Below are positions 33,722-64,000 of a stretch of DNA of 64,000 bases, in pieces. How positions within the stretch are numbered: position 1 is the stretch's first letter; each line of letters begins with the position of its first letter. Below the pieces are notes generated by a model. That model was not told where the DNA came from, made no database searches, and saw nothing but the letters and a program-made list of their open reading frames with translations. The translations under genes were made by a program, and so were the position numbers. The DNA is from Saprospiraceae bacterium (GTDB taxonomy: Bacteria > Bacteroidota > Bacteroidia > Chitinophagales > Saprospiraceae): the NCBI GenBank assembly GCA_022841345.1, contig JALHRR010000001.1:186001-250000 (forward strand), written 5' to 3'.

Positions 33722-33828
33722 CTTCGCGCCCCAATTGTTAAAATTTTTAACACAATTCAATACTAGTAGCTTTTGTTCGTTTACGATGGGTTACGTTGAA
33801 ATGTAGAAATGCTGTTGTTAAGGTATTT

Positions 33829-36800
33829 ATGAAGAAGACCTTTTTACTTTTATTAATTGTTTCGTTGTCAGGTGTGGGAGTTACAGCGCTATCATGGATG
33901 GATGTGGAAACATACAATTCCCTGCAGCAAAGAGCGGTTCCATTATCTACTGCCATAGATACGATACCCAAAGACAGAACCGGTGATTTCATTACCGACC
34001 CGGGTCGTCGCAATCCATACGATCTCAAAGATCCTCAGATCATAGAAAAGGACGTTGAATACGATCCTGTTACCAACCAATATATCATCCGTGAAAGAAT
34101 AGGAAGCGATTTTTATCGTGCTCCTACTTATATGACTTTTGAAGAGTATATGGAGTGGAGAGCCGCTAAGCAGGAGAGAGAATATTTTGCAAGAATGGCG
34201 GGTATAGGCACAGGGTCAGCCGGCTTGAAGAGAGATCCCATCGGAAGAGTGGATGTCAACAGGAGTCTGGTAGACAGACTTTTTGGGGGTTCTACTGTAG
34301 ACATAAAACCTCAGGGTAATATTGATGTCATTTTGGGTGTCAATTATCAGAAAGTTGAGAACCCCATCCTTCTGCAACGTCAGCAACAAAATACGATCTT
34401 CAATTTTGACATGGCCATCAATATGAATGTGACCGGTAAGATTGGAGAAAAGCTGAAATTGAACGCAAACTACAATACACAGGCAACATTTGATTTTGAT
34501 AATCAAATGCGTTTGGAGTATGATTCTGAAGCATTCTCTGAGGACGAAATCATTAAGAAAATTGAAGCAGGTAACGTAAGCCTACCTCTTAAGAGTACAC
34601 TAATCCAGGGCGCTCAGGCACTATTTGGTATCAAAACTGAATTACAATTTGGTAAATTAAGAGTAACAGCCATTGCCTCACAACAGCGTTCTCAGGCGAA
34701 AAATATCGTGGTCCAGGGGGGTACACAACAACAATTCTTTGCAGTAAGAGCAGATGAATATGATGAAAACCGCCATTTCTTTTTATCTCATTTTAATAGA
34801 GAGACTTTTGAATATGCACTGGATAAGTTGCCGCAAATTCAGAGTGTTTTCAAGGTCAACAGGATAGATGTATATGTGACCAATGAAAGAAATATGCCTG
34901 AAGGCGTAAGAGATATTGTGGCTATTTCAGATTTGGGTGAATTGATCAGACTGTCAAACCCCGGTAATGTTCAGCCTGGCCCGGGAGCAGGTAATGTAGG
35001 TATCCCACAACCCGGAGTTCCACCTTTACCATTACCCGCGAATGATGTAAATACTATCTTTCAGGATCTTCTCAACAATCCTTCTTCGCGCTTTCTGAAT
35101 GAGGCAGTCAATGTGCTTCAGAGTCCTCCGTTCAACATGCAACAATCCAGAGATTTTGAGAAATTGCGTGCCAGAAAACTTACACCTTCTGAATTTACTG
35201 TCAATCAGGAATTGGGATTCATTTCATTGAATACTGCTCTTCGCCCTGATCAGGTCCTCGGAGTTGCATACGAATATGTATATAATGGTAAGACTTATCA
35301 GGTGGGTGAATTTGACAATGAAGTTCCGGGTGCTTTAAATGATACGCTGGGAGTGATATTTGTCAGAATGTTGAAATCTACAACTCCAAGGGTAGATATT
35401 CCAAACTGGCACCTGATGATGAAGAATTTCTACAACATCAATGCTTACCAGGTAAGTCCGGAAGATTTCAGGCTGGATATTTTTTATGAGGACCCGGGAG
35501 GAGGAGAAAAACGATTTTTACCTACCAGTAATATTGCCAGTGAACCGTTGATCCGTGTATTTAATATGGATAATCTCAATCCCAATGGGGATCCGGGTCC
35601 GGATGGAGTTTTTGACTTTGTACCGGGACTGACCATCAATCCCCGGAATGGCCGGATCATGTTTCCTGTTTTAGAGCCTTTTGGTTCTTCTCTTTCTACT
35701 CAAATCACAGAGGCAGTTCAGCGGGAGCGATATGTCTATCAAATGCTCTATGATTCCACCATTACGAGAGCAAGGGAATACCAGGAATTGAATCGTTTTG
35801 TGATCAGGGGTTCCTATAAATCCAGCATATCCTCCGAAATTTCTCTGGGAGCCTTTAATATACCGGAAGGATCTGTAAGAGTCACCGGTGGAGCCATTCC
35901 TTTAGTGGAAGGAGTGCATTATGAAATTGATTATGGTCTGGGCAGAGTGCGAATTTTGGACCCTGCATTATTAGAGCCCGGAAATAGGGTTAGTGTATCT
36001 TTTGAAGATAATGCGCTCTTTAGTTTTCAGCAAAAAACAATGCTGGGTTTAAGGGCTGAATATGAAGTCAGTAAAAATCTCAATATAGGTGGTACATACC
36101 TCCATTTATTTGAAAGGCCATTTACTCAAAAAGTAAACCTTGGGGATGATCCGATTAACAATAGGATTTTTGGTCTGGATGTAAACTATAGTGAAGAAGC
36201 ACCCTGGTTAACGAGACTGGTGGATAAGCTCCCTTTTTATTCTACAAAAGAAGCGTCTAAAATCACATTTGCGGCAGAAGGTGCATACCTTAAGCCCGGA
36301 CACTCCAGAGCCATCAATCAGGACGGAGCCGGTGCAATCTATCTGGATGACTTCGAAGGTGTGATTAGCAGGATTGACCTGAGAACTCCAGCAAATCAAT
36401 GGGTGTTGTCCTCTGTGCCTCAGAATGCTCAAAGAGATGGAGCGCCTGTTTATACCGAATCTGCCCTTATTGACAATAGACTGGGGGGTGTCAACAGAGC
36501 ATTGCTCAACTGGTATCGGATTGATAATGCCGTTAGAAATGATAATGACAATCTAAATCCATATACAAAGCCAATAGAACTGAAGGAAATCTTCAGAAAT
36601 GCTTCATTACAGCCTGGGCTGAACAATGTAGTTCAGGTTTTTGACCTGACTTATCACCCCAGAGACAGAGGTCCGTATAATTATGATATTCCTGGCGGCA
36701 CTCAGTATTCAGCAGGTTTGGATAGCGATGGTTCATTGCTGAATCCTTCTTCCAGATGGGCAGGAATTCAAAGACCATTAACGACGAATGACTTTGAAGC

Positions 36801-39800
36801 TGCTAATATTGAATACGTTGAGATGTGGGTTCTGAACCCATTTATGCAGAGAGGACCTGATGACAATTTACCCGTAACAGGGCCGGGAAGATTGGTTCTT
36901 AATATTGGTAACGTATCAGAGGATATCCTTCGCGACTCCAGATTGTTTTTTGAAAATGGTGTTCCTGTACCCACTCCTGACGGAATGGCAAGAGCCGATG
37001 TCACCAATTGGGGATTGATTCCCCGCTCAGCTCAGATAGTACCTGCATTTGACATTGATGAAACCAACAGGAGAATTCAGGATGTAGGTCTGGATGGAAT
37101 GGATGATAATGCTGAAAGAGAATTTTTGGTGGATTACTTGTCTAATATCAATGGATCGTCCTTGTTATCTCCTGATGCCAAAAATCGTATCTCAGCAGAC
37201 CCTGCCAATGACAATTTTGCCCACTTCAGAGATGAAATATATTCTGACCAGGATGGGATTGTAGTAAAGCATAAGAAATTCAACAATCCGGAAGGAAATT
37301 CACCATCATCTCAGGAATCGGGTGCTTCTCAATTCCCTTTGTCTTATACTAATATACCTGATAGTGAGGATATCAACAGAGACAATACGCTGAATGAGAC
37401 TGAAGCATATTACGAATATATTATTCCTTTTGAGAGAGATGTGAATGGAGGAGTTGTCATCAATGAGTTTATCACCGATACCGTTAACGCTCCGAATTCA
37501 GGAACCTGGTACCGTATTAAAGTGCCTATTTCTCAATTTAACCGAGCGGTTAATAATATTCAGGATTTCAGGTCCATGCGATTTATCAGACTGTATCTGG
37601 ATGGATTTGATGAAAGCGTTACGTTCCGTTTTGCCAGATTCGAATTGGTCAGAAATCAATGGAGAAGGTACCTTCGAGACCTGAAGGAGCCGGGAGTTGT
37701 ATTCCCGGGAGATCCTGATGATGATATTTATTTTGATTTAGCTGCAGTGAATTTTGATGAAAACAGCGGTAAACTTCCATTTAATTATATCATTCCTCCG
37801 GGCATCAATCGTGAGAGATCTATCGGCGCATTCCCGGACATTTTTCAGAATGAGCAATCCCTTGCTTACAATGTATGCGATCTTCCTGATGGCCGGGCGG
37901 TAGCTGCTTACAGGATTCTCAATTATGATATGCGTCTTTTCGAAAGAATCAAAATGTTTATTCATGCTTCTTATTCTGATTCATTGCCGCCGATTGCAGA
38001 TGGTAAGGTCAGCTTATTTATGCGTTTGGGTAGTGACTTTACCAGCAACTACTATGAGTATGAGATTCCGCTGAGTATGTCTGATCCTATGTTGGGGCTC
38101 AGAGATCCGGCTAATATATGGAAAGTGGAAAATAATATGGACTTCAGTCTGGAAGTCATGAAGCAGCTCAAGCTGGATCGTAACAATATAGGTTTTGCAC
38201 TGACGGAAGTATATGAGAATCAGGATCCGGAGAATCCAAATAATAAAATTAAAGTCATCGGTAATCCAAATTTTGGACTGGTAAAGGGGATCATGATTGG
38301 TGTTAAAAATATTGGAAATGATAATCAGGCCCGATGTTTTGAGGTCTGGGTCAATGAGCTGAGGGTCAATGGATTTGATGAGCGTGGCGGTTTGGCCGCT
38401 TTGGCCAGGCTGAATATGCAATTGGCCGATCTTGGGAATATTGGTGTTGCCGGAAATTATAGCACCATCGGATGGGGTGGTCTCGATCAGAGACTTGCAC
38501 AGCGAAGCAGGGAAGATGTCATTCAGTATGACATAACCGCCAATCTTGAACTGGGTAAGTTCTTTAATGAAAAAACGGGTATTCGTATTCCATTCTATGC
38601 GCAGTATTCCAATACTTACAGATTACCTCAATTCGATCCATATGATCTGGATATTGAGTTGAATGAAAAGATAAATAATACTCCGGATCAGAGTGACCGG
38701 GATTCCATCAGAAATCAGGCAATAGATTTTCTATCCATCAAGACATATTCCTTTACAAATGTCCGCAAGGAAAGAGTTCAGCAGACTACAAAAGCGCCAA
38801 TGCCCTGGAATATTGAGAATTTCAGTTTGACTTATTCATACGCTGAGACATTCAGAAGGGATCCGATTATTGAATTTGACAACCTGGAACAATACCGGTT
38901 TGGACTCGACTACAGCTTTGCACGGAAGGTGACTTATATTCAACCTTTCAAAAACCTTATCAAGAAAGATAAATATTTTAAGCTGATCACAGATTTTAAT
39001 TTCAATCCTTTACCCAATAGTTTTTCAGTCTCTAATGTCTTTGACAGGCAATATCAGCAGCGCCGGTTCAGGTTCTCAGACCCGCAATATGACCTTTGGG
39101 TGAATAAAAGATTTCTCTGGGACAGAAACTATAATCTTCAGTGGGATTTAACCAGATCATTAAAAATTAATTACAGCGCACTGGCCAATGCCATTATAGA
39201 TGAAATTCCTGAGATTGATGAAGATGGACAATATAATGAAGATTTCAACAGAGAAAGAAACAGGCAGGAAATATTAAAAAACATCAGAAACCTGGGACGT
39301 CTCAAGAATTTCTCACATAATATCAACGCAACTTATACTGTTCCTACCAAGAATATTCCTTTTCTGGATTTTGTGAATATCAGAGCTACTGTGACGGCTA
39401 CATATACATGGAACAGGGCCGCTCTTCAGCAAGAGTTTTTGGGAAATGTCATCCAGAATTCTCAGACCAGGAACCTCAGTGGTGACTTCAATTTTGACCG
39501 GCTATATCAAAAGTCAAAATACCTGACATCCATTGAAAAAGCAAAAGCGCCGGTACGGGGTGGTGCAGGAGCCAGAGGACAAGGCGGAGGAGCGGTAGAT
39601 CAAAAAGAGAAGGATACAAACCTTCCTAACAGGCCTGGTGGAAAGGAACCAACACCGGTTCCGGCTGAGGACGAAAAGAAGAAAAGAGAGGCTAAAACCG
39701 GACCGGGTGAATTTGAGAGAATATTAATTCGTCCATTATTGCTTATCCGGAAAGCCAGACTAAATTATACTCAGAACTTTGCATCCATCGTCCCGGGATT

Positions 39801-41151
39801 TACACCTACTCCATTCTTATTTGGATTAGCTGAAAATTGGACAGCACCGGGATGGCAGTATATTGCCGGCTTGCAGCCCACCAATGCCATGCTGGATGGA
39901 TATGCCCAGAATCGATGGATAACAGACGCTATTTTTCTCAATCAGCAGGTATACAGAAATACTACCGAGACTTTTGATGCAAGAGTCACACTGGAACCAT
40001 TCAATGGCTTCAAAATAGATCTGGACATCAACAAATCCAATACTTTCAACAACACACTCTTTCTAAAAGATACATTGGATGATGGAATGTACGATGTAAA
40101 AAGGCTCAATTCCAGGGATCTGGGTTCCTTTACGATTTCTTATCTGGCCATCAATACCCTGTTCAATAATGACGTGAATGGTATGTTCAGAAATTTTGAA
40201 AATACCAGACCGGGAATTTCTACAAGAGTTCGGAATGAAATGGGACTACCTCCGGGTGAGCATGCACTGGATGGATCTGATTATGAATTAGGTTTGGGAA
40301 GATTTCAAACAGATGTCCTTATTCCTTCATTCCTCGCTGCTTATACCAATACCCCTGTAGACAAGGTCCAACTGGATGTTTTCAAAACTGCTCCAAAACC
40401 CAACTGGACACTGAGCTACGATGGACTTACCAGGATTCCGGCGGTGAAAGAGATTTTCAGTAGTGTGAGAATTTCTCATGCCTACAAATCCACACTGACC
40501 ATTAATGCATTCAATTCCAGTGCAAAGTACACAGATCAGTTTGAAGTGATTAATGACATTACTGCAAATTATTACTCAAGATTTGAGATTCCGAATATTG
40601 TAATCAATGAGAGTATGTCACCATTGCTGGGAATCGATGTGAAGACCAACAACGACATAATAATCAAGGCAGATTTAAGAAAGAATCGCAACCTGGCAAT
40701 GAGCTTCATAGATTTCCAGTTATCTGAAACCCGCTCCAGTGAGTACATAGTTGGATTCGGATATGAAATCAAGAACTTCGTTATCAATTTTCTGAGTGGT
40801 AACAAAAATGTAAGGCAACGCCGAAACAGAGCTGATACCCCACCAGCGACGCCTCCGGCAGGAGGTTCAAGGGGCGGGCAGGCCAGAAGTGCTAATAATT
40901 TGCGGATCAACTGTGACTTTTCTATCAGAGATGATCTCACCGTCATTCACTTGCTTGATCAGGAACAGCCTCCGATTCCTACGAGAGGATTGAGAACCAC
41001 CAGATTTTCACCCAATGTGGAGTATGATGTGTCAAAGTCATTGACAGTGAGACTGTTTGTAGATTATTCAAGAACGGTACCGGCTACTACTCAGTCCTTC
41101 CCGATTACGAATATTAACACAGGTGTCAGGGTCAGATTTTCGCTTAATTGA
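33829..41151 (+). CDS. sprA: T9SS outer-membrane translocon SprA (Sov)
   Basis: Very large outer-membrane protein that forms the conducting pore of the type IX secretion system. It is 2440 residues from the ATG at 33829, which directly begins a signal peptide (MKKTFLLLLIVSL); an upstream TTG would add eleven residues with no sense. The protein is full of alternating aromatic strands, as expected for the 36-strand SprA barrel. The N-terminal part shows SprA-type motifs (YDPVTNQYIIRERIG, GNIDVILGVNYQKVENP, GKIGEKLKLNANYNTQ), and a similar second segment recurs later. A low-complexity, proline- and lysine-rich insert (residues about 1905-1960) is probably an exposed loop. The final strand ends VRVRFSLN. 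Position after ruvA and length close to F. johnsoniae SprA (about 2400 residues) support the call. It should export the three T9SS cargo proteins of this window. Confidence 0.96.
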   Translation: MKKTFLLLLIVSLSGVGVTALSWMDVETYNSLQQRAVPLSTAIDTIPKDRTGDFITDPGRRNPYDLKDPQIIEKDVEYDPVTNQYIIRERIGSDFYRAPTYMTFEEYMEWRAAKQEREYFARMAGIGTGSAGLKRDPIGRVDVNRSLVDRLFGGSTVDIKPQGNIDVILGVNYQKVENPILLQRQQQNTIFNFDMAINMNVTGKIGEKLKLNANYNTQATFDFDNQMRLEYDSEAFSEDEIIKKIEAGNVSLPLKSTLIQGAQALFGIKTELQFGKLRVTAIASQQRSQAKNIVVQGGTQQQFFAVRADEYDENRHFFLSHFNRETFEYALDKLPQIQSVFKVNRIDVYVTNERNMPEGVRDIVAISDLGELIRLSNPGNVQPGPGAGNVGIPQPGVPPLPLPANDVNTIFQDLLNNPSSRFLNEAVNVLQSPPFNMQQSRDFEKLRARKLTPSEFTVNQELGFISLNTALRPDQVLGVAYEYVYNGKTYQVGEFDNEVPGALNDTLGVIFVRMLKSTTPRVDIPNWHLMMKNFYNINAYQVSPEDFRLDIFYEDPGGGEKRFLPTSNIASEPLIRVFNMDNLNPNGDPGPDGVFDFVPGLTINPRNGRIMFPVLEPFGSSLSTQITEAVQRERYVYQMLYDSTITRAREYQELNRFVIRGSYKSSISSEISLGAFNIPEGSVRVTGGAIPLVEGVHYEIDYGLGRVRILDPALLEPGNRVSVSFEDNALFSFQQKTMLGLRAEYEVSKNLNIGGTYLHLFERPFTQKVNLGDDPINNRIFGLDVNYSEEAPWLTRLVDKLPFYSTKEASKITFAAEGAYLKPGHSRAINQDGAGAIYLDDFEGVISRIDLRTPANQWVLSSVPQNAQRDGAPVYTESALIDNRLGGVNRALLNWYRIDNAVRNDNDNLNPYTKPIELKEIFRNASLQPGLNNVVQVFDLTYHPRDRGPYNYDIPGGTQYSAGLDSDGSLLNPSSRWAGIQRPLTTNDFEAANIEYVEMWVLNPFMQRGPDDNLPVTGPGRLVLNIGNVSEDILRDSRLFFENGVPVPTPDGMARADVTNWGLIPRSAQIVPAFDIDETNRRIQDVGLDGMDDNAEREFLVDYLSNINGSSLLSPDAKNRISADPANDNFAHFRDEIYSDQDGIVVKHKKFNNPEGNSPSSQESGASQFPLSYTNIPDSEDINRDNTLNETEAYYEYIIPFERDVNGGVVINEFITDTVNAPNSGTWYRIKVPISQFNRAVNNIQDFRSMRFIRLYLDGFDESVTFRFARFELVRNQWRRYLRDLKEPGVVFPGDPDDDIYFDLAAVNFDENSGKLPFNYIIPPGINRERSIGAFPDIFQNEQSLAYNVCDLPDGRAVAAYRILNYDMRLFERIKMFIHASYSDSLPPIADGKVSLFMRLGSDFTSNYYEYEIPLSMSDPMLGLRDPANIWKVENNMDFSLEVMKQLKLDRNNIGFALTEVYENQDPENPNNKIKVIGNPNFGLVKGIMIGVKNIGNDNQARCFEVWVNELRVNGFDERGGLAALARLNMQLADLGNIGVAGNYSTIGWGGLDQRLAQRSREDVIQYDITANLELGKFFNEKTGIRIPFYAQYSNTYRLPQFDPYDLDIELNEKINNTPDQSDRDSIRNQAIDFLSIKTYSFTNVRKERVQQTTKAPMPWNIENFSLTYSYAETFRRDPIIEFDNLEQYRFGLDYSFARKVTYIQPFKNLIKKDKYFKLITDFNFNPLPNSFSVSNVFDRQYQQRRFRFSDPQYDLWVNKRFLWDRNYNLQWDLTRSLKINYSALANAIIDEIPEIDEDGQYNEDFNRERNRQEILKNIRNLGRLKNFSHNINATYTVPTKNIPFLDFVNIRATVTATYTWNRAALQQEFLGNVIQNSQTRNLSGDFNFDRLYQKSKYLTSIEKAKAPVRGGAGARGQGGGAVDQKEKDTNLPNRPGGKEPTPVPAEDEKKKREAKTGPGEFERILIRPLLLIRKARLNYTQNFASIVPGFTPTPFLFGLAENWTAPGWQYIAGLQPTNAMLDGYAQNRWITDAIFLNQQVYRNTTETFDARVTLEPFNGFKIDLDINKSNTFNNTLFLKDTLDDGMYDVKRLNSRDLGSFTISYLAINTLFNNDVNGMFRNFENTRPGISTRVRNEMGLPPGEHALDGSDYELGLGRFQTDVLIPSFLAAYTNTPVDKVQLDVFKTAPKPNWTLSYDGLTRIPAVKEIFSSVRISHAYKSTLTINAFNSSAKYTDQFEVINDITANYYSRFEIPNIVINESMSPLLGIDVKTNNDIIIKADLRKNRNLAMSFIDFQLSETRSSEYIVGFGYEIKNFVINFLSGNKNVRQRRNRADTPPATPPAGGSRGGQARSANNLRINCDFSIRDDLTVIHLLDQEQPPIPTRGLRTTRFSPNVEYDVSKSLTVRLFVDYSRTVPATTQSFPITNINTGVRVRFSLN

Positions 41152-50922: not shown

Positions 50923-50941
50923 TTCTTTTGTGTTAAATAGA

Positions 50942-53058: not shown

Positions 53059-53061
53059 AAT

Positions 53062-53955
53062 TTAGTTTTTTCCGTTTTTATAAATCCCCAGTACTTTGAT
53101 TCCTTCTGTATAGGCACTCATTTCTTCCAGGGCTGCTTCAAACTGAGATAAATCATCAAATTCCATATCTACATGAAAGCTATAGGTCCATTGATTCTGA
53201 GGTATGGGCATGCTTTGCAGTTTGCTCAGATTGATCCAGTGTTCTGAAATAATAGATAATACCTGAGCCAGCGCTCCTTTCGTATGTGAAGTATGGAAAT
53301 TCACCGAAGCTTTATTAGCACCTTCAGGTATTACTGCACTTTCATTTTTATGAAGGATCAGAAATCGTGTATAATTATTTGCAATGCTGTGTATGTTTTC
53401 TGCCAAAATTTCAAGCCCATACAGTGTTGCTGCTAATTTCCCCGCGATCGCTGCTGCATGTTTGTGATGATATTGATGCAAATGTTTTGCACTAAGTGCT
53501 GTGTCCTCGGTTTCGACCAATTTCCAGCCCGGATGAGATTCCAAAAAATCAATGCATTGAAGCAATGCCATCGGGTGGCTATGAACTTCCCGAATATCTT
53601 CGAGACGAACGCCAGGATTGACCATGAGTTGTTGCTGTATATGGAGATAAATTTCCCCGGTAATTTGCAAGTCGCTGTTCAGGATCAGGTTGTAATTTGG
53701 TAAAATACTTCCGGCAATGGAATTCTCGATTGCCATGACGGCTGCAGTTGTTTGTTCATCCTGTGTAACGGATTTGATCAGGCTTCTGAAGGAATCACAG
53801 GGCGCAATATTTATTTCATTCCCAAAATAGAGCTGTGCAGCTTCCTGATGAAAAGAACCTTCATATCCCTGAATGGCAATGTTATTAACAGCAGCATGGG
53901 CACGTTTTGGCTGAGCTGATTGTTTTATGTTAGTAGGATAAGTCTTACCTGGCAT
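53062..53955 (-). CDS. pheA: Prephenate dehydratase
   Basis: 297 residues from the ATG at 53955; a longer frame reaching 54045 would run through the terminator hairpin and is rejected. It decarboxylates and dehydrates prephenate to phenylpyruvate. The prephenate dehydratase domain (about 25-215) shows IAIQGYEGSFHQEAA, MAIENSIAGSILPNY and TRFLILHKN. A C-terminal ACT domain (about 220-295, SVNFHTSHTKGALAQVLSII) gives feedback control by phenylalanine. No chorismate mutase is attached; that activity is fused to DAHP synthase downstream. It is the first gene after the attenuator and opens the operon. Confidence 0.94.
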   Translation of the reverse strand: MPGKTYPTNIKQSAQPKRAHAAVNNIAIQGYEGSFHQEAAQLYFGNEINIAPCDSFRSLIKSVTQDEQTTAAVMAIENSIAGSILPNYNLILNSDLQITGEIYLHIQQQLMVNPGVRLEDIREVHSHPMALLQCIDFLESHPGWKLVETEDTALSAKHLHQYHHKHAAAIAGKLAATLYGLEILAENIHSIANNYTRFLILHKNESAVIPEGANKASVNFHTSHTKGALAQVLSIISEHWINLSKLQSMPIPQNQWTYSFHVDMEFDDLSQFEAALEEMSAYTEGIKVLGIYKNGKN

Positions 53956-53971
53956 TTTTTTAATTTTTAGC

Positions 53972-54000
53972 AAAAAAAAACCCGGTCTGTTGGGACCGGG
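53972..54000 (-). terminator. Attenuator terminator before pheA
   Basis: On the minus strand CCCGGTC (54000-53994) and GACCGGG (53987-53981) form a perfect 7-bp stem with loop CCAACA, extended by A/U and G-U pairs, followed by nine U residues (53980-53972). It ends only 16 nt before the pheA ATG and after the leader ORF, so it must control read-through into the operon. The 5' arm contains CCGGTC, which can alternatively pair with GACCGG (54058-54053) inside the leader ORF. Confidence 0.92.
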
Positions 54001-54037
54001 CTTCTGATTTAATCTTGATTCGTTTTGTTTAAATGGC

Positions 54038-54118
54038 TCAAGCAAAGGACTTCCGGTCTACTTTTTGAAAGTAAAAAAAAGAACAGAATGACCAATAAAA
54101 TGATGCTTGTCTTGCCAT
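54038..54118 (-). CDS. Aromatic-amino-acid leader peptide
   Basis: 26-codon ORF, ATG at 54118 and TGA at 54040-54038. Residues 7-17 read FYWSFCSFFYF: eight of eleven are Phe, Tyr or Trp (six Phe, two Tyr and one Trp in the whole peptide). It lies between the promoter and the terminator that precedes pheA, the classic position of a leader peptide whose translation senses charged tRNA. Codons 21-22 (GAC CGG) overlap the segment that can form the antiterminator. It is too short for ordinary gene finders. Composition, position and RNA structure together make chance unlikely. Confidence 0.88.
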   Translation of the reverse strand: MARQASFYWSFCSFFYFQKVDRKSFA

Positions 54119-54125
54119 ATAGAGG

Positions 54126-54155
54126 TAAAATTACAAGTCATTCTGTATTGTGCAA
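54126..54155 (-). promoter_or_regulatory. Promoter of the phenylalanine/tyrosine operon
   Basis: On the minus strand TTG (54155-54153), an exact 19-bp spacer, and TAATTTTA (54133-54126; one mismatch to TAnnTTTG). The leader-peptide ATG follows after 7 bp, giving an almost leaderless message. It drives the leader, attenuator and pheA-to-aroF operon. Confidence 0.65.
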
Positions 54156-54340
54156 ATGTTTTGCAAAAAAATAACAATACTTTTTTCTCTTCATCCCGAT
54201 AAGATTTACTGTTTTAGCTAAGAAATAATAATAGTTGTATTTGAATACCTGTTTCATCACTTTAAATTCCAACTCCATCTTAATAGACCACAGCCCGGAC
54301 TCTATATATAACTACATTGGGGTGTAAACATAAGTGACAC

Positions 54341-57300
54341 ATGAAATCAACAGTACTTTTAATATCCTTTTTTATATTTTTCTTTCAGTTTGAGACGCTT
54401 ATCGCTCAAAATTGCACATCGCTTTTCTCATTTGATATGGTAGGAGTCAATGTTGCTTTCATGGATCAATCTACTACCACTGGATCTCCTATTGTGTCCT
54501 GGAACTGGAATTTTGGCGACGGAAGCAGCTCGAATCAACAGAATCCTGTTCATGTCTTTCCCGGGCAGGATGAATATGTGGTTTGTCTAACAATTACCAC
54601 TGCTAACAATTGTTCAGATCAGTTCTGTTTTGATCTCGAGATCTGCCATATGACTGTAACTGTGACGCAAACCGGGGATTGCAATTCAAATGGAGAAATA
54701 CCCATTCGCATTTTTATCACTGACATGTATGACAACGCCCGGGATGTCAATGTCTCAATTGATGGAAATCTTGTCCCCGGAAGTCCTTTCAGAGTAAGGG
54801 AAGATGAGCCGGTCACCATTAATACATTTGTTCCCGGCGATGGACTGAGCCATGTCATTGCAGTTATTTCTGAGGATGTGGAGGGATGTCAGGTGATACA
54901 GGATTTTCAATCTGAAGATTGTACCTCAGATTGCTTTATTTCCGGAATGGCATTACAATTTTCAGGGGGAGCCACTCATACTATTAATGTTGGTGGTAAC
55001 TTTTTTCAACCTGTGAATCAAACTATTCTAATTGGAGATTTGGTTAATTTTCAATTTATAGATGGGGGACATACTACTACTTCTGACGCAACGACCGGAC
55101 CGGATTCCTGGAGTTCCGGAGAATTGGGTTTTGGAGCTACCTACCCTGTATATATAACCAATCCGGGTACTCACCGATATTATTGCCAGCCTCATGGTGG
55201 TCCAAACGGAAATGGGATGTCGGGAATGATCATTGCAAACTGCCCACCTGGTGGACAAAATCCGGTGCAAGTATCTTTCAACACCTCCATTGCTAACCCG
55301 GCAGGATATAATATTCGGGTAGATGGGGTGAATATTCCCGGAAGTCCATTCATGTACTCCGGTACAGGTCCAAATAGTCAAATAATCACCATCGCAGGAG
55401 ATGGAATGGCACATACCGTAGAAGTGCAGGATGTAGCAGAACCGACCTGTATCAATACACGAACATACAATGCTCCTGACTGCGGCGCTGCACCCGCTTG
55501 CAATATCAGCTTTTCAGGAGCACAATCAGGAGGATGCGCCAATAATCAGGTTCCCTATCAATTAACTATCGCTACCATTAACGGCAGTGCACAGGGGTTT
55601 CAGGTATTGGTAAATAATGTTCTCCTTCCCGGAGGACCCTTTCCATATAACTCAGGGGGAAATACCCTTTTTACCGTTCAACTTCCCGGCAATGGTCAGT
55701 CTCAAACCGTAAGAGTAAGAGATAGTCAGGATGTAAATTGTTTCGGCGAACAAATGTTTACTACACCCAACTGCAGTGCTCCCTGTAATATTTCAAATGT
55801 GACAATAAGTAGTGGCTCTGCAGTAACGCACACGGTTCAAGTAAGGGATTTTGACTTTTTCCCTCCTTCTATCCAAATCACGAACGGAGATATTATTGAT
55901 TTTTTCTGGACGGGTGTAGTGCCACATACAAGTACTTCTGATGTTGGCGCCGGTCCGAATACCTGGAATTCAGGATTGTTGAATCAGGGGGCCCATTACA
56001 TGGTGACAATAACAGACCCGGGCAATTATGGATATTATTGCTTGCCTCACGGAGCTCCCGGAGGAGTAGGTATGGCCGGTACCATCACAGCTGTGCCACC
56101 ATGCAATAATGGACTTGTGAGTGTTTTAGTAACTTTTCAGGCATCTAATGCAGGTTTCACAGGATTTAATATTTTAGTGGATGGAAACATGGTCTCAGGT
56201 GGACCTTTTCCATATGATGACAATAATGGCATAAATAGCATTCCGGTGTTGGTCCCCGGGAATGGAATGTCGCATGTAATCCTGATTCAGGATGCAGAAA
56301 CAACCACCTGCAGTGCCTCAAATAACATTACAACTCCTGATTGTAATGCTTCATTTTGTGAAATTAATGTCACAGCGCAGCAAAATGGGACTTGTAATCA
56401 GGGTAATGTGAGCGTCAACCTTACAATACAGTCACTAAATGGAGGTAGTACCGGATTTACGGTAACATCAAATGGGGTGCCAGTCGCTGGTAGTCCATTC
56501 CAGTATACCGGAAATAATACAGTCGTTCCAATTACTTTGATGGGAAATGGACAGACATATACAATAGCTGTGGCAGATGTCGCTGATGCTTCCTGCACTG
56601 CTCAAACAAGCTTAGCAAGTCCTGATTGTAATTTGCCTTGCAGTATCAATAATTTAAGTGTCTCCGCCGGGCAACAAGTGACGCATGTAGTAGATGTAAG
56701 GGATTTTGATTTTAGCCCGGCGGCTATACTAATCAATGTAAATGATATTGTGAGGTTTAATTGGACAGGGGCAGTTCCGCATACTTCTACATCGGACCTT
56801 CCTTCAGGACCCAATAGCTGGAGCTCCGGGTTGCAGGGACAAGGTTTTCAATATGATGTTACGATTACTGAAATCGGCGTTCACCCATATTATTGTGCAC
56901 CACATGGAGCCCCGGGCGGTGTTGGAATGGCTGGAACTATAACTGCTGCTCCTCCCTGCAATGATGGTTTTGTACAGGTTTCGCTGCAATTTGGATTTGT
57001 AAATGGTGGCTCCGGTGGTTATAATGTCTTAGTCGATGGACAAATAATTCCCGGAAGTCCTTTTGATTATCCTGCTTCAGGACCCGTGCAACAATCAGTT
57101 GCTGTGCCGGGAGATGGAGAGAACCACTTAATTGAAGTGAGAGATGTTGCCGGTCCGGCTTGTCAGGCATCTGTTAATCTGGTAACACCGGATTGTAATG
57201 TTTCCTTTTGCCAATTAAATGTTCAGGCAAACCAAAATGGAGCCTGTAATCAGGGCAGCGTTCCTGTTTCAGTGACGGTCTCAGCTATTAATCCGGGTAA

Positions 57301-60300
57301 TGCAGGATTCATAGTATTGGTTGATGGTCAGCCTGTTAACGGAAATCCATTTCAATATCAGGGAGCCAATACCACCGTCAATATTCAGGTAGTCGGCGAT
57401 GGGTCCTCGCATTCAATTATAGTAAGAGATGTAGAGGATAATGCATGTACCAATACTGCTCAGGTAACCACATCAGACTGCAATCTGCCTTGTCAAATCA
57501 GTAATTTACAGGTAAGTGCGGGGCAATCAGTAACGCATACCGTTCAGGTAAGAGATTTTGATTTCAATCCGCAGCATATTTCGATTAATACCGGTGATGC
57601 AATAGATTTTATTTGGACAGGTGTAATTGCGCATACAGCTACAACTGACCTGCCGTCTGGACCGGGTAGCTGGAATTCCGGCTTGCAGGGTCAGGGATTT
57701 GAATATTCCGTAACATTTGAAGAGGTTGGTGTGGTCCCATATTACTGTATTCCTCACGGAGCACCGGGTGGAGTGGGTATGGCAGGAACTGTCAGCGTGA
57801 CTCCTCCTTGTGTGGATGGCTTTGTACAGGTTAGTACAAGTTTTGAATTTTCTAATCCGGGAGCAGGTGGCTACAGAGTGTTTGTTGACAATGTTGAAAT
57901 TTCGGGTAGTCCATTTCCATACCCTTCAGGAAATAGTGTTCAAATTTCAGTATCGGTAACAGGTGATGCACAATTGCATCAAATTAAAATTCAGGATGCT
58001 TCTCAATCCGCTTGTTTTAGTACTGCCCAGGTGACCACTCCGGATTGTGGTGTTTCACTTTGTCAGTTAAGTGTGTCCACAGTCGTAACCGGGCCTTGTA
58101 CTCCTCAGCAAACATTGCCTGTGAATGTCAGTGTGAATGCATTGAATCCTGCCGGTACATCTTTTAACTTGTATTTAAATAATATTCTTTACACCGGATC
58201 TCCATTTAATTATGGGACACAGGGTGCCACCATTATTCCGATTTTAGTTTCCGGAAATGGCCAGACACATGTCATTCGCGTCGAAGACTTCAGTGATCCT
58301 ACCTGCCAGGCGCAGACAAGTCTTGGTGTTTCTGATTGTAATGATCCTTGTGTGCTGACCAATTTGACATTGTCAACAGGTTCACCAGTGGTTCATGTAG
58401 TAGGAGTAGAAGATTTTCAGTTTGACCCGCAATTCATAGATATTAATGCAGGAGATACTGTACAATTCATTTGGACAGGAGTTATACCACATACAGCCAC
58501 TTCTTCTGTTTCTACCGGTCCGGGCAGTTTTAATTCCGGTCTTCAGGGTCCGGGATTTGTGTACGAAGTTCCATTCGCAGTGCCTGGTGAATATCCATAT
58601 TATTGTGAACCACATGGTACTCCTTCAGGAATTGGAATGGCAGGAACAATCACCGTCAATAATAACTGTACCAATAATCAGGTACAGGTGGCTATTTCTT
58701 TTCAAGCAAATAATGTAGGCGTTCAGGGGTATTTGGTATTTGTAGATGGCACTCAGGTCTCGGGCCCGCATGCGTATGTAAGCGGACCAATTCAATCAAA
58801 TACTGTGGCTGTTGCCGGCGATGGAATGAGCCACACAATCGAGATCAGAGACGCAGATTATGCCGACTGCAAAATAATCAGTTCCATCACTACCCCTTTA
58901 TGTGGCGGAGGTAATGTTTGTCAGATCAATGCAACAGCAAATGTAGGCACTGTGTGTGATGCACAAAACAGGGTGCAGGTCACATTAACAGTAAGTCACC
59001 AAAATGTAAGTACAACAGGGTTTGATGTATTGGTGGACGGTGTTACATTTAATGCTCAGCCGATTCCTTATACATCTGGAAGTCAAACTGTTTATGTCCT
59101 TTCACTGGCAGGAACCGGCACCAATAAGCAAATGCAAATCAGAGATGCCGTTGATGCTTCCTGCAATGATACATTGCAAATTACTCTTCCATCTTGTGGA
59201 GTAGCATGTGCAATAGAGCAATTAGCCGTTAATGCCGGACCCGGCGTACATGAGGTGCAAGTACGGGATTATGATTATTTACCTCAAATTGCGCAGATTC
59301 AATTAGGGGATACAGTAAGATTCGTGTGGACCGGAGCCATACCACATACAGTGACTTCAGATATTTTGAGCGGTCCTGGTTCTTTTAATTCCGGATTGCT
59401 TTCTACCGGTGCTACATTTGATGTCATCCCCGGTAATGCAGGTACTGTTGGATATTTCTGTATTCCCCATGGAGGTCCCGGGGGTATCGGTATGGCAGGA
59501 AGCATACAGGTCTCAGGTGGTTCTGAATGTGTAGGCGATACTGCTGTTCTTTCTATTCAATTTGCTGTCACAAATGGAAGCCCTCTGGGATATTGGGTCT
59601 ATCAGGATGGAGTTAAATTGAATGCTCAACCCATTACTTATCAAAATCAAATGGGATTAAATCAAACCACTATTCGTGTTATTGGTGACGGAAGTCCCCA
59701 TTTCTTAACAGTGCAAGATGTAGAATCTCCAGGTTGTGCAGCCACAGCTTTGTTTGAGACACCATTGTGTGGAGCAGGCTGCGCGATCCTGGATATGGAT
59801 CTTAATACAGGTGAAAATATTGTACATCGGGTAGAAGTCAGGGATTTTGATTATCTGCCTGAGAATATATTGATTAGAACAGGAGAGACCGTTTTGTTTG
59901 ATTTCACAGGTGTGATTCCGCATACAGTGACATCTGATGCACTTCAGGGGCCGGATGTGTTTAACTCGGGAATTCTGGGACAGGGAGCTGCTTATGAAGT
60001 CACTATTCAGCAAACCGGAGCACACCCTTACTATTGTATACCACACGGTGGTCCATCCGGAATAGGTATGGCAGGTTCTATTCAGGCCAATCTTTCCTGC
60101 GAAAATGGACTGACAGCTCTTCAGGTAAAATTCAGAGTTACAAATGGCAGCGCAGAAGGATATAGAATATATCTCGACGGGGTATTGCTGCCCGGAAGTC
60201 CTTTTATTTATGATGATCGCCGGGGGGAAAATGTACGAATGTTATTTTTACAAGGAGATGGTCAGCAACATATTATAACTATTCAGGATCTTGACAATCC

Positions 60301-61933
60301 CATTTGTGCTGCCTCCGGCTTTGTCTTTTTACAAAATTGTGCTCAAAATTGTTCTTTCAATCAGGTTCAGGTTGCAGTTTCTTCAGGCAGAGAACATGAG
60401 GTGCTCGTTCGGGATTTTGATTTCGAACCATTGACGCTGCAGGTCGAGCCGGGAGATTTGGTGGTTTTTAACTGGACAGGAGTTGTTCCTCATACAGTTA
60501 CATCTGATAATTCTTCAGGTCCCGGATCATTTAATTCAGGCTTGTTGGGGCAAGGTGCGCAGTACACTTTACCTGTTTTGGATCCCGGGACAATTTCATA
60601 TTATTGTATTCCTCACGGATCGCCGGGTGGAATAGGAATGGCCGGACTCATCACCAGCACTGCTGCATGTGATGATGACACATTAAGTATGCAGCTTACC
60701 TTTCAGACTGCAACAGGAAAGACCGGATTCTACCAGATAATGATCAATGGGATGCTCTATCCAGGCGGACCAATCCCTTACAATGCATCAGGAAATCAAC
60801 TTATGCTGTTTTCAATTCCCGGAGATGGAGTTGAGCGTACCCTGAGCATTATTGACTTAAGTGATCCAACCTGCTTCACTCAGACTTCGTTTGTAGCGCC
60901 CGACTGTGATAATCCTTGTTTTGAATTGAAAGCGGGATTCAATTTTGCAGTAGATATCAATAGCAAGAGTGTGCAATTCACCAATACCAGCACGGGAACT
61001 TATGATGAAGTTACATGGACCTTTGGCGATGGAGGGCAGTCCGGAGAGCTTTCTCCGAATCACACATATGCTGCGGATGGAAGCTATCAGGTTTGCCTTT
61101 TTCTTGAAAATTCCTCCAGTGGATGTCGTGATACTATTTGCAAAACTGTATTTATCGGAGGTTTTATCTGCCAGGCAAATTTTGATTTTGATGGAAAAGG
61201 ACTTGCAATTCAATTTGAAGATTTGTCGATCACAAGTAGTCCCGTCATGCTGAGAACCTGGTCATTTGGTGATAATAATATTACGCTTAATGTGCTTAAT
61301 CCTCTGCATACTTATGCAGGGCTGGGAATTTATGAAGTCTGCCTGACTGTGAAGACAGCTGAATGTGAGAGTACAATTTGCAAAACTATTGACCTTAGTA
61401 ATCCCTGTGTTTTATTTCAACCAGATTTTGAATATGTTCCGGATCAGAATCAGGGATTCCAGTTTGTAGACCTGACAGAAGGTGAGCCGGATAATTGGTT
61501 ATGGGGCTTTGGTGACGGAAGTACCAGCAATGAAAAGAATCCATTCCACAGATATAATACAGGCGGCAATTATAAAGTCTGTTTATTGGTACAAAGAGAA
61601 CAAGATTTCTGTAGTAAGTTCCTGTGTAAAGAGATTCAATTAAGCACCGGAATATTTTCTACCAGAATCGTGAATCACAAATTGAAGGTATTTCCAAATC
61701 CAGTCCCGGATGGATTAACAGAGGTGATTTTGGAAGGTGTTTTGGATCTTGATTTAAATAAAAGAGGAATATACCTGATATACGATGCAATGGGACGCAC
61801 TGCGCAATCAGGTGATATACAGATGGAGAAATCCACTTCATTGCCACTGTCTCACAAATTTGTGAAGGGTATTTATTTTCTGGAATTGAAATTGGGTGAA
61901 CGGATTTATTATGCGAGCTTTATGTACCAATAG
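54341..61933 (+). CDS. Giant secreted protein with eight cupredoxin domains
   Basis: 2530 residues, with signal peptide 1-22 (cleavage near LIAQ). N-terminal PKD domain (about 23-100). Eight plastocyanin-like domains start near residues 200, 482, 767, 1049, 1337, 1624, 1815 and 2004. Each keeps the four copper ligands: His in a PHT-like motif (VVPHT, AIPHT, GGHTT in domain 1), then Cys and His in YYCxPHG and Met in GMAG. The Cys-to-Met loop (C-x2-H-x7-M) is longer than in plastocyanin. Between them lie about fourteen copies of a roughly 90-residue beta repeat (DGxxxxGSPFxY ... GDGxxH ... PDC), two per interval in the first part and one between domains 6, 7 and 8. Three PKD domains (about 2190-2435) precede a T9SS sorting domain (2450-2530). 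It may bind copper or carry electrons at the surface. Function is inferred. Confidence 0.9.
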   Translation: MKSTVLLISFFIFFFQFETLIAQNCTSLFSFDMVGVNVAFMDQSTTTGSPIVSWNWNFGDGSSSNQQNPVHVFPGQDEYVVCLTITTANNCSDQFCFDLEICHMTVTVTQTGDCNSNGEIPIRIFITDMYDNARDVNVSIDGNLVPGSPFRVREDEPVTINTFVPGDGLSHVIAVISEDVEGCQVIQDFQSEDCTSDCFISGMALQFSGGATHTINVGGNFFQPVNQTILIGDLVNFQFIDGGHTTTSDATTGPDSWSSGELGFGATYPVYITNPGTHRYYCQPHGGPNGNGMSGMIIANCPPGGQNPVQVSFNTSIANPAGYNIRVDGVNIPGSPFMYSGTGPNSQIITIAGDGMAHTVEVQDVAEPTCINTRTYNAPDCGAAPACNISFSGAQSGGCANNQVPYQLTIATINGSAQGFQVLVNNVLLPGGPFPYNSGGNTLFTVQLPGNGQSQTVRVRDSQDVNCFGEQMFTTPNCSAPCNISNVTISSGSAVTHTVQVRDFDFFPPSIQITNGDIIDFFWTGVVPHTSTSDVGAGPNTWNSGLLNQGAHYMVTITDPGNYGYYCLPHGAPGGVGMAGTITAVPPCNNGLVSVLVTFQASNAGFTGFNILVDGNMVSGGPFPYDDNNGINSIPVLVPGNGMSHVILIQDAETTTCSASNNITTPDCNASFCEINVTAQQNGTCNQGNVSVNLTIQSLNGGSTGFTVTSNGVPVAGSPFQYTGNNTVVPITLMGNGQTYTIAVADVADASCTAQTSLASPDCNLPCSINNLSVSAGQQVTHVVDVRDFDFSPAAILINVNDIVRFNWTGAVPHTSTSDLPSGPNSWSSGLQGQGFQYDVTITEIGVHPYYCAPHGAPGGVGMAGTITAAPPCNDGFVQVSLQFGFVNGGSGGYNVLVDGQIIPGSPFDYPASGPVQQSVAVPGDGENHLIEVRDVAGPACQASVNLVTPDCNVSFCQLNVQANQNGACNQGSVPVSVTVSAINPGNAGFIVLVDGQPVNGNPFQYQGANTTVNIQVVGDGSSHSIIVRDVEDNACTNTAQVTTSDCNLPCQISNLQVSAGQSVTHTVQVRDFDFNPQHISINTGDAIDFIWTGVIAHTATTDLPSGPGSWNSGLQGQGFEYSVTFEEVGVVPYYCIPHGAPGGVGMAGTVSVTPPCVDGFVQVSTSFEFSNPGAGGYRVFVDNVEISGSPFPYPSGNSVQISVSVTGDAQLHQIKIQDASQSACFSTAQVTTPDCGVSLCQLSVSTVVTGPCTPQQTLPVNVSVNALNPAGTSFNLYLNNILYTGSPFNYGTQGATIIPILVSGNGQTHVIRVEDFSDPTCQAQTSLGVSDCNDPCVLTNLTLSTGSPVVHVVGVEDFQFDPQFIDINAGDTVQFIWTGVIPHTATSSVSTGPGSFNSGLQGPGFVYEVPFAVPGEYPYYCEPHGTPSGIGMAGTITVNNNCTNNQVQVAISFQANNVGVQGYLVFVDGTQVSGPHAYVSGPIQSNTVAVAGDGMSHTIEIRDADYADCKIISSITTPLCGGGNVCQINATANVGTVCDAQNRVQVTLTVSHQNVSTTGFDVLVDGVTFNAQPIPYTSGSQTVYVLSLAGTGTNKQMQIRDAVDASCNDTLQITLPSCGVACAIEQLAVNAGPGVHEVQVRDYDYLPQIAQIQLGDTVRFVWTGAIPHTVTSDILSGPGSFNSGLLSTGATFDVIPGNAGTVGYFCIPHGGPGGIGMAGSIQVSGGSECVGDTAVLSIQFAVTNGSPLGYWVYQDGVKLNAQPITYQNQMGLNQTTIRVIGDGSPHFLTVQDVESPGCAATALFETPLCGAGCAILDMDLNTGENIVHRVEVRDFDYLPENILIRTGETVLFDFTGVIPHTVTSDALQGPDVFNSGILGQGAAYEVTIQQTGAHPYYCIPHGGPSGIGMAGSIQANLSCENGLTALQVKFRVTNGSAEGYRIYLDGVLLPGSPFIYDDRRGENVRMLFLQGDGQQHIITIQDLDNPICAASGFVFLQNCAQNCSFNQVQVAVSSGREHEVLVRDFDFEPLTLQVEPGDLVVFNWTGVVPHTVTSDNSSGPGSFNSGLLGQGAQYTLPVLDPGTISYYCIPHGSPGGIGMAGLITSTAACDDDTLSMQLTFQTATGKTGFYQIMINGMLYPGGPIPYNASGNQLMLFSIPGDGVERTLSIIDLSDPTCFTQTSFVAPDCDNPCFELKAGFNFAVDINSKSVQFTNTSTGTYDEVTWTFGDGGQSGELSPNHTYAADGSYQVCLFLENSSSGCRDTICKTVFIGGFICQANFDFDGKGLAIQFEDLSITSSPVMLRTWSFGDNNITLNVLNPLHTYAGLGIYEVCLTVKTAECESTICKTIDLSNPCVLFQPDFEYVPDQNQGFQFVDLTEGEPDNWLWGFGDGSTSNEKNPFHRYNTGGNYKVCLLVQREQDFCSKFLCKEIQLSTGIFSTRIVNHKLKVFPNPVPDGLTEVILEGVLDLDLNKRGIYLIYDAMGRTAQSGDIQMEKSTSLPLSHKFVKGIYFLELKLGERIYYASFMYQ

Positions 61934-61942
61934 TACGCCTGC

Positions 61943-64000
61943 ATGAATCTGCTTCAAATAAGTAAAAATAGGATTTCAATCTTTTCCTGGATGCTGGTAG
62001 TCATCATCCTGACAGGCGGTTTGTTGGTTTCCCCCTTAGGAAGTTGGCAATCAGAAGTTCCGGGTTATAAACTGGTGGTCGATGCATTACCCGATCTCAG
62101 TGAAAACAGACATGTAGTCGTTTGTAAGTTAGGTGCTGCCAATCCACGGATTCTGGAAAAGAAAGTGACCATTCCATTGAGCAAATGGTTGTTGTCTCAG
62201 AAAAATATAAAGGAAGTTCAGGCACTTACCATGAATGCGAAAGTATTCCTTTATATCAGAATGGATGATAGTCCTGATTTTCAGGACTCATATGATGATC
62301 TCACTGCTATACTGAATCGAATGCCTCCCCAAATATTGCCGGAAGAAGCAGTTCTTGAAGCCGGACCACCTACCAGCTCTGTTCATCAGACTTTTGGTTT
62401 TATTCTTAACCAATCAGATTCGACCGGAGAATTTATGCCTATTCTGGATCCTCATGAACTGTCAACACTGCTCCAAAAGGAATTTATTCCGGAATTGTAT
62501 GCAATTGAAGGAGTAGCAGAAGTAGCAATTGCTGGTGGTGCCGGAACTGAAATTCAGATAATTCCGGATCTGGAAGCTATGAAGGGATGGGGAATCTCGC
62601 TGGAGTCCCTGATTGAGCAGATCAAAAAATCATTCAACAACAATTCTTCGGGAACAGCTTCATTTAATGGTATTGAGTATTTTATAGAATGGGACGAAAG
62701 CGATAAAGATCCCAATTTTTTTCGGGAAATGCTGGTTCACGGGCATGAAGGAACTACGGCACTTTCCAGCATTGCCGCAGTCCAGACAGCAGCCTCTGAG
62801 CGAAATAGTCTGTTAATTTTTGAAGGACATGAGACTAGTGGAGCATTTATCAGTTTGTATCCTCATGCAGATCCTTCGATAGTTTTAACACAGGTACAGA
62901 AATCAATTGACAATATAATTCAGAAATGGAACCAGCAGAACATTAGTGGAAATGGAGGAATTAGTTCGCATGTCTTCTACAATCGAATGGACCTGATTCA
63001 AAAGAACATGAGTACCCTTCGGGAAGCACTTATTCTCGAATGCTTAATTGCAGTGTTTATACTGTGCTTGTTTATGAGTCGATTTAGAATAGCTGTAATA
63101 GTTGCTATAATGGTGCCCCTGACCATTTCGCTTGTATTTATCATTATGTATTTCACAGGAATTCGTCTGCATATTTTATCTGTTGCAGGTCTGATTTTAG
63201 CAATAGGTACTGTAGTTGATTTTGGAATTATTCTATCTCAAAGTGTAGAGGAGAAATTGGTCCAAAGTGAGCGTGGAAATCTCAGGGGAGCTATTCAGGA
63301 ATCTATGCGTTCTGTATTACCCTTATTTATCACATCGGCTTCGATTGTGATATTGGCATTCATTCCGGTTTTTTTATTGGAAGGGACTGAAGGACGCATG
63401 TTTTCACCTTTGGCCTGGACTAAGACACTGATGATGATTTCAGCATTATTGCTGACGTTATTGATACTGCCGGGCTTATTGAGAAGCACATTAAATATCT
63501 CTATCTCTGTTAACATAGGTTACGGGATAGGATTGACAGCTGCTTTGACCCTTGTTTATTTGAATTTTTTGGCAGGAATTGCTGCAATTTTCATTTTTCT
63601 GGCTTATTTTCTTTCACGCGAAAAGCCAAAACAAAGAGTGATAGTAATGCGGGTGTCTGCCGTTATTTTTCTCATTTTTTACAGTCATTTTTGGGCTCCA
63701 TTAGGGCAGGCGCAATTGCCTGTTTTGAACATTTTATTTGGTACCGGCCTGATTGCAGCCTTATTAGTAATAATGCATTTCAATCAAATCTACTACAAAG
63801 TCATCCTGGGTTTTCTGATGAAGAAGGCAGCCTGGTATGGCATATTCATTGTTTGTTTTTTGATGGCAGGGATTTGGTCATTTTTCCGGATTCCAGCTTC
63901 TCATTTGCCTGTATTAAATGAAGGTGTTTATTTACATATGCCTTCTTTGCCGCATGGCGCTGATATCCATGAAGCACTGGATTATGGATTATTACTGGAT
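61943..64000 (+). CDS. CusA-like RND transporter, 3' end cut by window
   Basis: Runs off the right edge; at least 686 residues are present without a stop. The ATG at 61943 starts 9 bp after the giant cupredoxin gene, so the two are likely cotranscribed. A first membrane helix (about 10-32) leads to a periplasmic porter domain. The second helix bundle carries VVDFGIILSQS, matching the conserved aspartate of RND pumps, and FIPVFLLEGTEGRMFSPLA, closely like the heavy-metal-efflux CusA sequence LPVFTLEGQEGRLFSPLA from memory. A later LPVLNEGVYLHMP also fits this family. Copper as the substrate is inferred from the family and neighbour. The periplasmic adaptor and outer-membrane channel, if present, lie beyond the window. 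Confidence 0.85.
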   Translation, partial: MNLLQISKNRISIFSWMLVVIILTGGLLVSPLGSWQSEVPGYKLVVDALPDLSENRHVVVCKLGAANPRILEKKVTIPLSKWLLSQKNIKEVQALTMNAKVFLYIRMDDSPDFQDSYDDLTAILNRMPPQILPEEAVLEAGPPTSSVHQTFGFILNQSDSTGEFMPILDPHELSTLLQKEFIPELYAIEGVAEVAIAGGAGTEIQIIPDLEAMKGWGISLESLIEQIKKSFNNNSSGTASFNGIEYFIEWDESDKDPNFFREMLVHGHEGTTALSSIAAVQTAASERNSLLIFEGHETSGAFISLYPHADPSIVLTQVQKSIDNIIQKWNQQNISGNGGISSHVFYNRMDLIQKNMSTLREALILECLIAVFILCLFMSRFRIAVIVAIMVPLTISLVFIIMYFTGIRLHILSVAGLILAIGTVVDFGIILSQSVEEKLVQSERGNLRGAIQESMRSVLPLFITSASIVILAFIPVFLLEGTEGRMFSPLAWTKTLMMISALLLTLLILPGLLRSTLNISISVNIGYGIGLTAALTLVYLNFLAGIAAIFIFLAYFLSREKPKQRVIVMRVSAVIFLIFYSHFWAPLGQAQLPVLNILFGTGLIAALLVIMHFNQIYYKVILGFLMKKAAWYGIFIVCFLMAGIWSFFRIPASHLPVLNEGVYLHMPSLPHGADIHEALDYGLLLD

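Follow-up and report, generated by a model that had tools for sequence, protein, structure and literature searches.

Tandem arrays of cupredoxin domains in predicted secreted proteins of the Saprospiraceae

Architecture of the eight-cupredoxin protein

The window analyzed here is a stretch of 64,000 nucleotides from a Saprospiraceae bacterium (GCA_022841345.1, contig JALHRR010000001.1, positions 186,001 to 250,000). Toward its 3' end lies a single long frame that codes for a large protein with repeated cupredoxin domains, flanked by Polycystic-Kidney-Disease-type (PKD) domains as defined in Pfam and followed by genes for a putative metal efflux system. The features that matter for what follows are these:

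33796..41151, + strand: SprA, core of the type IX secretion system (T9SS) (PF14349, 563 bits)
54341..61933, + strand: gene of the eight-cupredoxin protein, one ATG-started frame of 2530 amino acid residues
54449..54619, + strand: N-terminal PKD domain, residues 37-93 (Pfam)
54941..55240, + strand: cupredoxin domain 1, whose first His motif is a GHT variant
55790..56092, + strand: cupredoxin domain 2 (domain alignment)
56645..56947, + strand: cupredoxin domain 3 (domain alignment)
57494..57799, + strand: cupredoxin domain 4 (domain alignment)
58355..58660, + strand: cupredoxin domain 5 (domain alignment)
58661..59206, + strand: example of a spacer domain pair, ~87 and ~95 residues, Cys-rich
59213..59512, + strand: cupredoxin domain 6 (domain alignment)
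59786..60091, + strand: cupredoxin domain 7, preceded by one spacer (domain alignment)
60356..60658, + strand: cupredoxin domain 8, preceded by one spacer (domain alignment)
60953..61630, + strand: C-terminal PKD domains, read as three, with approximate bounds (PKD_4 matches four stretches in total, one of them N-terminal)
61688..61933, + strand: T9SS-type C-terminal tail (PF18962, below the Pfam cut-off in this copy)
61943..64000, + strand: gene of a CusA-like RND pump of 1177 residues, continuing beyond the window
Outside the window, at L052 7473-8756: gene of a CusB-like adaptor with a heavy-metal-binding domain (HMBD), overlapping the end of the pump gene by 4 bases

The original prediction placed eight cupredoxins on one polypeptide, and this was borne out, as the Pfam profile PF00127 (Copper-bind) matches the single 2530-residue frame with an E value of 1.3e-67, at eight stretches each with E <= 0.1. 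A six-frame search with the same profile listed seven of the eight places with scores above the 21.2-bit cut-off, the missing one being domain 1. The first six copper domains start ~285 residues apart and the last steps are of ~190 residues, one or two spacer modules of ~95 residues lying between neighboring copper domains. The spacer pair that was scanned with Pfam matched no family above cut-off. Cysteine residues other than the ligands are regularly placed, with a CxxxC motif directly before each copper domain and more cysteines in every spacer, and they may form disulfides along the chain. The computed pI of the protein is 4.2 without its signal peptide. Around the gene, nothing reached the Rfam gathering threshold within the window, and the 26 promoter-like sites counted over 53950-62100 gave nothing clear (shuffled mean 19.6, sd 4.1).

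The protein is probably secreted. Its C-terminal tail has the usual look of a T9SS signal but scores 16.9 bits with PF18962 (cut-off 27), while that of the one relative scanned (L041) reaches 29.5 bits, and the sprA gene is found 13 kb upstream of the array gene in the same window. Two more proteins of the window genome have a single cupredoxin match each (L053 7644-9389 and L054 6512-7159), and their tails are T9SS-like by eye.

The ligands His, Cys, His and Met were expected in each of the eight repeats, and the alignment confirms all of them: the four columns are invariant across the window domains and coincide with the ligands of the solved plastocyanin 1bxu. The proposal of type-1 sites thus stands for the four ligands but not for the plastocyanin loop length, since the last ligand loop reads C-x2-H-x7-M in all eight window domains and C-x2-H-x4-M in 1bxu, with a three-residue gap in the alignment. 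The longer loop is a family trait, the step from Cys to Met being 11 in 168 of the 168 measurable domains and 8 in 1bxu. Among the 170 domains of 30 frames from 27 genomes, 164 have the HCHM set, three have HCHQ, and three are cut short at the end of a contig or by a stretch of N. The Gln-for-Met sites (domain 8 of L042, domain 7 of L094 and domain 6 of L092) are in each case in the penultimate domain, the three arrays being related, and they group together in the domain tree. An axial Gln is associated with a lower potential in stellacyanin; the position of the Gln sites in these arrays is what might be expected if their potential were tuned.

By profile and by their four ligands, the array domains belong to the same fold family as plastocyanin, pseudoazurin and amicyanin (PF00127). 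The whole protein passes the NCBIfam profiles for plastocyanin, halocyanin and amicyanin alike (TIGR02656, 224.8 against 87.85; TIGR03102, 215.9 against 93.8; TIGR02657, 121.6 against 110.2, each score being summed over 5 to 8 stretches), so that no single subclass can be named. The solved PF00127 relatives listed are mostly single-domain carriers, the nitrite reductases 9cck and 6hbe being longer. The arrays differ from plastocyanin in having up to ten tandem domains with spacers, besides the longer ligand loop. Several cupredoxin domains per chain are also found in multicopper oxidases and ceruloplasmin, which harbor a catalytic trinuclear center; in contrast, no multicopper-oxidase family of Pfam matched the window protein at E <= 0.1.

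Distribution and evolution of the arrays

A close match to the domain was found in 34 of the 398 genomes sampled from the host family, the window's own included, and 31 of them have two or more, only G179, G220 and G299 having a single one. Because a strict threshold (E 1e-15) was applied and at most 12 candidates were scored per genome, the domain counts are lower bounds. The array design thus occurs in about one in twelve sampled relatives, with a patchy distribution; the same-genus genome G001 is without a match at E 1e-15. Proteins with five or more such domains, a search for which had been proposed, do exist, and the largest frames hold ten (3183 residues in G085, a one-contig genome, and 3206 residues at L041). 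Steps between copper domains in the relatives are of ~190, 285 or 380 residues, corresponding to one, two or three spacers. An assembly artefact was ruled out by the ten-domain gene of the single-contig G085, in which identical repeats differ at silent sites.

Other searches delimited the family. A one-domain scan of named genomes returned 13 loci, namely six single-domain ones and seven arrays, which the records label as Saprospiraceae (five), Chitinophagales (one) and Sphingobacteriales (one). Class-wide, at the same E value of 1e-15, 11 of 391 genomes matched: the window genome and ten with single-domain frames of 209-232 residues. Similarly, 51 array-free genomes of the class that carry DUF5777, a barrel protein discussed below, yielded 36 PF00127 matches, no two of them in one frame; these 51 are the DUF5777 carriers of the class, the window's own left out. 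Plasmid sequences gave matches in 120 records at 126 places, with at most two places per record among the 25 records listed. In a whole-protein search 59 of 60 relatives matched, but in most of these genomes the listed matches span only the C-terminal PKD domains and tail, and they were not used for arrays.

The copper domains are under purifying selection and evolve more slowly than the spacers in all four usable ortholog pairs, with dN/dS values of 0.084, 0.073, 0.095 and 0.140 for the cupredoxin domains and 0.224, 0.165, 0.164 and 0.186 for the spacers; the last two pairs give rough ratios, as their dS is 1.7-2.2 and they have one protein in common, and a fifth pair was saturated and left out. 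A tree built from 92 domains of 12 proteins places 11 first domains in one clade (100/99), the twelfth protein beginning at a contig edge, while inner repeats tend to group by protein; the alignment is short, 36 of the 87 inner branches are left open, and bootstrapping stopped short of convergence. At L091, domains 3, 5 and 6 are identical in protein sequence, with dS of 0.10-0.39. The single clade of first domains and the grouping of inner repeats within proteins make the array look old, with fresh duplication of the 285-residue unit in several lineages.

Genomic neighborhood

In the window, the start of the pump gene follows the stop codon of the array gene by 9 bases, which, together with the 4-base overlap between pump and adaptor genes, suggests that array, pump and adaptor are on one transcript. 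The two neighbors resemble CusA and CusB of CusCBA-type copper efflux systems, although some NCBIfam profiles score below their cut-offs: the pump has 321.5 bits with the CusA/CzcA profile TIGR00914 (cut-off 701.45), and the adaptor 61.3 bits with the RND adaptor profile TIGR01730 (cut-off 94.9) but 33.9 bits with the HMBD profile PF19335 (cut-off 23.6).

Array loci were read in 27 genomes, 25 from the family tally of 34 and two from outside it, and 23 of them have DNA beyond the 3' end of the array; the loci of G139, G155, G179, G220, G229, G271, G299, G320 and G403 were left out. Orthologs and module genes were labeled by BLAST against single reference proteins. A CusB-like adaptor gene follows the array, directly or behind a pump gene, in 10 of the 23 genomes, and eight of these ten adaptors have a metal-binding motif (Pfam or pattern). 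A CusA-like pump gene follows it in two, the window genome and G127, the latter having the cytochrome module as well. At that place G105 has a different adaptor and an outer-membrane efflux gene.

The usual company of the arrays is a set of redox-related genes that code for a cytochrome with CX4CH and CxxCH motifs, a smaller CxxCH protein, an OB-fold protein, a YceI protein and a DUF5777 barrel. At least one of them is near the array in 21 of the 23 genomes with readable downstream DNA, the exceptions being the window genome and G202. The larger cytochrome has both motifs in 20 of 20 copies, and the copies scanned pass the PSCyt1 cut-off. The smaller has one CxxCH in 19 of 19 copies, and its assignment rests on that motif, as it has no Pfam match above cut-off. 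Several array loci have other genes between the array and the module; in G222 the single module gene is at a contig edge, and in G047 the array is split across two contigs, with the larger cytochrome gene 5' of one piece. In the window genome, contig C2 holds the genes of the smaller cytochrome, OB-fold, YceI and DUF5777 proteins together, and C20 that of the larger cytochrome. The window genome and G202 have another type of neighbor: a prephenate dehydratase gene adjoins the array of G202 (L103 4631-5650, Pfam), and in the window aromatic amino acid genes, assigned by eye, adjoin it on the opposite side (49822-54045).

At six loci (L055, L091, L092, L093, L095 and L104), the array is located between the cytochrome genes and a set of YceI, kinase and LytTR regulator genes, or part of that set. 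Among 20 DUF5777 loci of array-free family genomes, the regulator runs straight into the cytochromes in five (L139, L145, L147, L148 and L150). As the same order is found with the array inserted and without it, the module seems to be a standing redox unit in which the array is optional. The module, present at L111 8355-10712 and at L139, L147, L148 and L150, is often led by the YceI-kinase-LytTR trio. A gene for a TPR protein and one for a glycosyltransferase precede the cytochromes in one genome with an array and one without (L104 2672-5993 and L152 8195-11552), and the slot thus takes other genes too. In two array-free genomes, a di-heme cytochrome c peroxidase gene (CCP_MauG) is found beside the module (L151 3222-4547 and L142 11154-12488).

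DUF5777, for which no paper was found in the open-licence literature searched, occurs in 352 of the 398 family genomes, comprising all 34 with an array and 318 of the 364 others (P 0.02, uncorrected for kinship), and its genome-level presence says little since it is so common in the family. A cupredoxin gene adjoins that of DUF5777 in two of the 51 array-free genomes, or two of their 36 cupredoxin matches. In a phylum sample of 20 DUF5777 loci, L120 has one single-domain T9SS cupredoxin beside DUF5777, and at L130 9141-9914 a T9SS protein whose DOMON match fails the cut-off (23.6 bits, cut-off 32.7) is beside DUF5777 or a module gene; these two loci hint faintly at a slot for redox proteins next to DUF5777. 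In another family, a Lipoprotein_15 repeat protein gene adjoins DUF5777 or a module gene (L116 4890-6515). The closest single-domain relatives found are cupredoxins of 209-232 residues from other families in the class, and their tails are T9SS-like by eye. Unlike the arrays, they have one domain and a shorter ligand loop, and no labeled module gene was near any of the eight loci read among the ten found.

Possible functions of the arrays

The best-supported reading, given that the ligand sets are kept across the family and that cytochromes are the usual company, is a redox array at the cell surface. We tentatively favor, with slightly less than even confidence, a T9SS-exported array of independent type-1 copper domains that would store electrons for small c-type cytochromes or be their redox hub. 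Each site would take up and give out one electron; each domain would be supplied on its own by mobile or neighboring partners rather than through the chain; and the small cytochromes would exchange electrons with the copper array. The CusB-like adaptor, with or without a pump, might help supply or clear the copper. An electron role is plausible because the sites are intact and under selection and because c-type cytochrome genes are usually near the relatives' arrays. At the window locus, however, the cytochrome module is absent and the metal-pump pair is present instead, which argues against this reading. Counting against it as well are the absence of any association with NosZ (see below), the lack of a match in the same-genus genome G001 at the threshold used, the rarity of cupredoxins next to DUF5777 in array-free genomes, and the eight single-domain loci without a module gene. 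The arrays (pI 4.1-4.4) and both cytochromes (4.1-5.5) are very acidic, so that charge-matched docking between them is unsupported.

A bolder form of the redox reading, doubtful though conceivable, would make these poly-cupredoxins copper-based electron capacitors of the cell surface, in which 4-10 independent type-1 sites on spacer rods pinned by cysteines would be charged and discharged by co-encoded cytochromes. Repeat number and the axial ligands of single sites would then be evolvable knobs for tuning the device.

Long redox arrays outside cells are known as heme proteins. In the Saprospiraceae, secreted proteins with very many heme motifs have been described from wastewater genomes, and their authors speculate about electron transfer or capacitor-like storage (PMC11495043). 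As described in that article, these proteins are similar to the arrays in their host family, predicted secretion and many redox centers, with heme in place of copper. The main text of the article contains none of the words copper, cupredoxin and plastocyanin. The passages found in PMC4585252, PMC12016528 and PMC9240420 apply the term "multidomain cupredoxin" to oxidases or a nitrite reductase, or refer to single cupredoxins. The open-licence literature searched yielded no paper on tandem arrays of mononuclear cupredoxins; while the cupredoxin domain is known, a tandem mononuclear array with this ligand loop is undescribed there. If the redox reading is true, a copper counterpart of the heme arrays would mean that electrons can be stored or passed on at the cell surface by a second chemistry, and the Saprospiraceae would have a copper array in addition to the many-heme secreted proteins reported in PMC11495043. 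The family lends itself to study, as the domains are small, natural variants differ in repeat number, and a single domain suffices for examining the unusual ligand loop.

The original prediction had also considered conduction along one chain and copper buffering. The former is unsupported: neighboring copper domains have one or two ~95-residue spacers between them, and up to three in relatives, which would put them out of reach of direct tunneling if the chain is extended, so that their spacing by itself makes such a wire improbable. The strongest competitor of the redox store or hub is copper buffering, though we consider it rather unlikely. In this proposal each chain would hold up to eight copper ions at the cell exterior, either to detoxify or to store them, and the CusA/CusB-like pair would export copper. 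The tight succession of array, pump and HMBD-bearing adaptor genes in the window fits this proposal, as do the strong negative charge of the arrays and the adaptors that follow them in other genomes, most with metal-binding motifs. It is the adaptor that keeps a copper role alive. Against buffering, a pump is next to the array in only 2 of 23 genomes, the window pump and adaptor score below their CusA/CzcA and RND adaptor cut-offs, and the module cytochromes are the commoner neighbors. Type-1 copper sites, moreover, are usually redox sites.

It is improbable that the array donates electrons from its copper sites to just one enzyme, at the surface or in the periplasm, its copy number merely raising the local concentration. 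Candidate partners would be the co-located CxxCH and thioredoxin-like proteins or a di-heme peroxidase: members of one pair of genes, CxxCH or thioredoxin-like, are next to the array in 9 of the 27 genomes (L039, L042, L044, L045, L092, L093, L094, L095 and L105), with Pfam matches of the pair (e.g., L044 8310-10413) below cut-off, and a CCP/MauG peroxidase gene adjoins the module in the array-free genomes G001 and G372. No single enzyme is constant among the loci, however. For N2O reductase in particular, electron supply by the arrays was rejected, as NosZ occurs in 14 of the 34 array genomes and 141 of the 364 others (P 0.85). Finally, the protein might be structural or adhesive, with the cupredoxin fold as a mere scaffold and copper incidental. 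Surface adhesins typically have PKD domains, Cys-rich spacer modules and expanded repeats, and repeat number varies widely here, but this reading is very improbable in view of the ligands kept in 164 of 170 domains and the slower evolution of the copper domains relative to the spacers.
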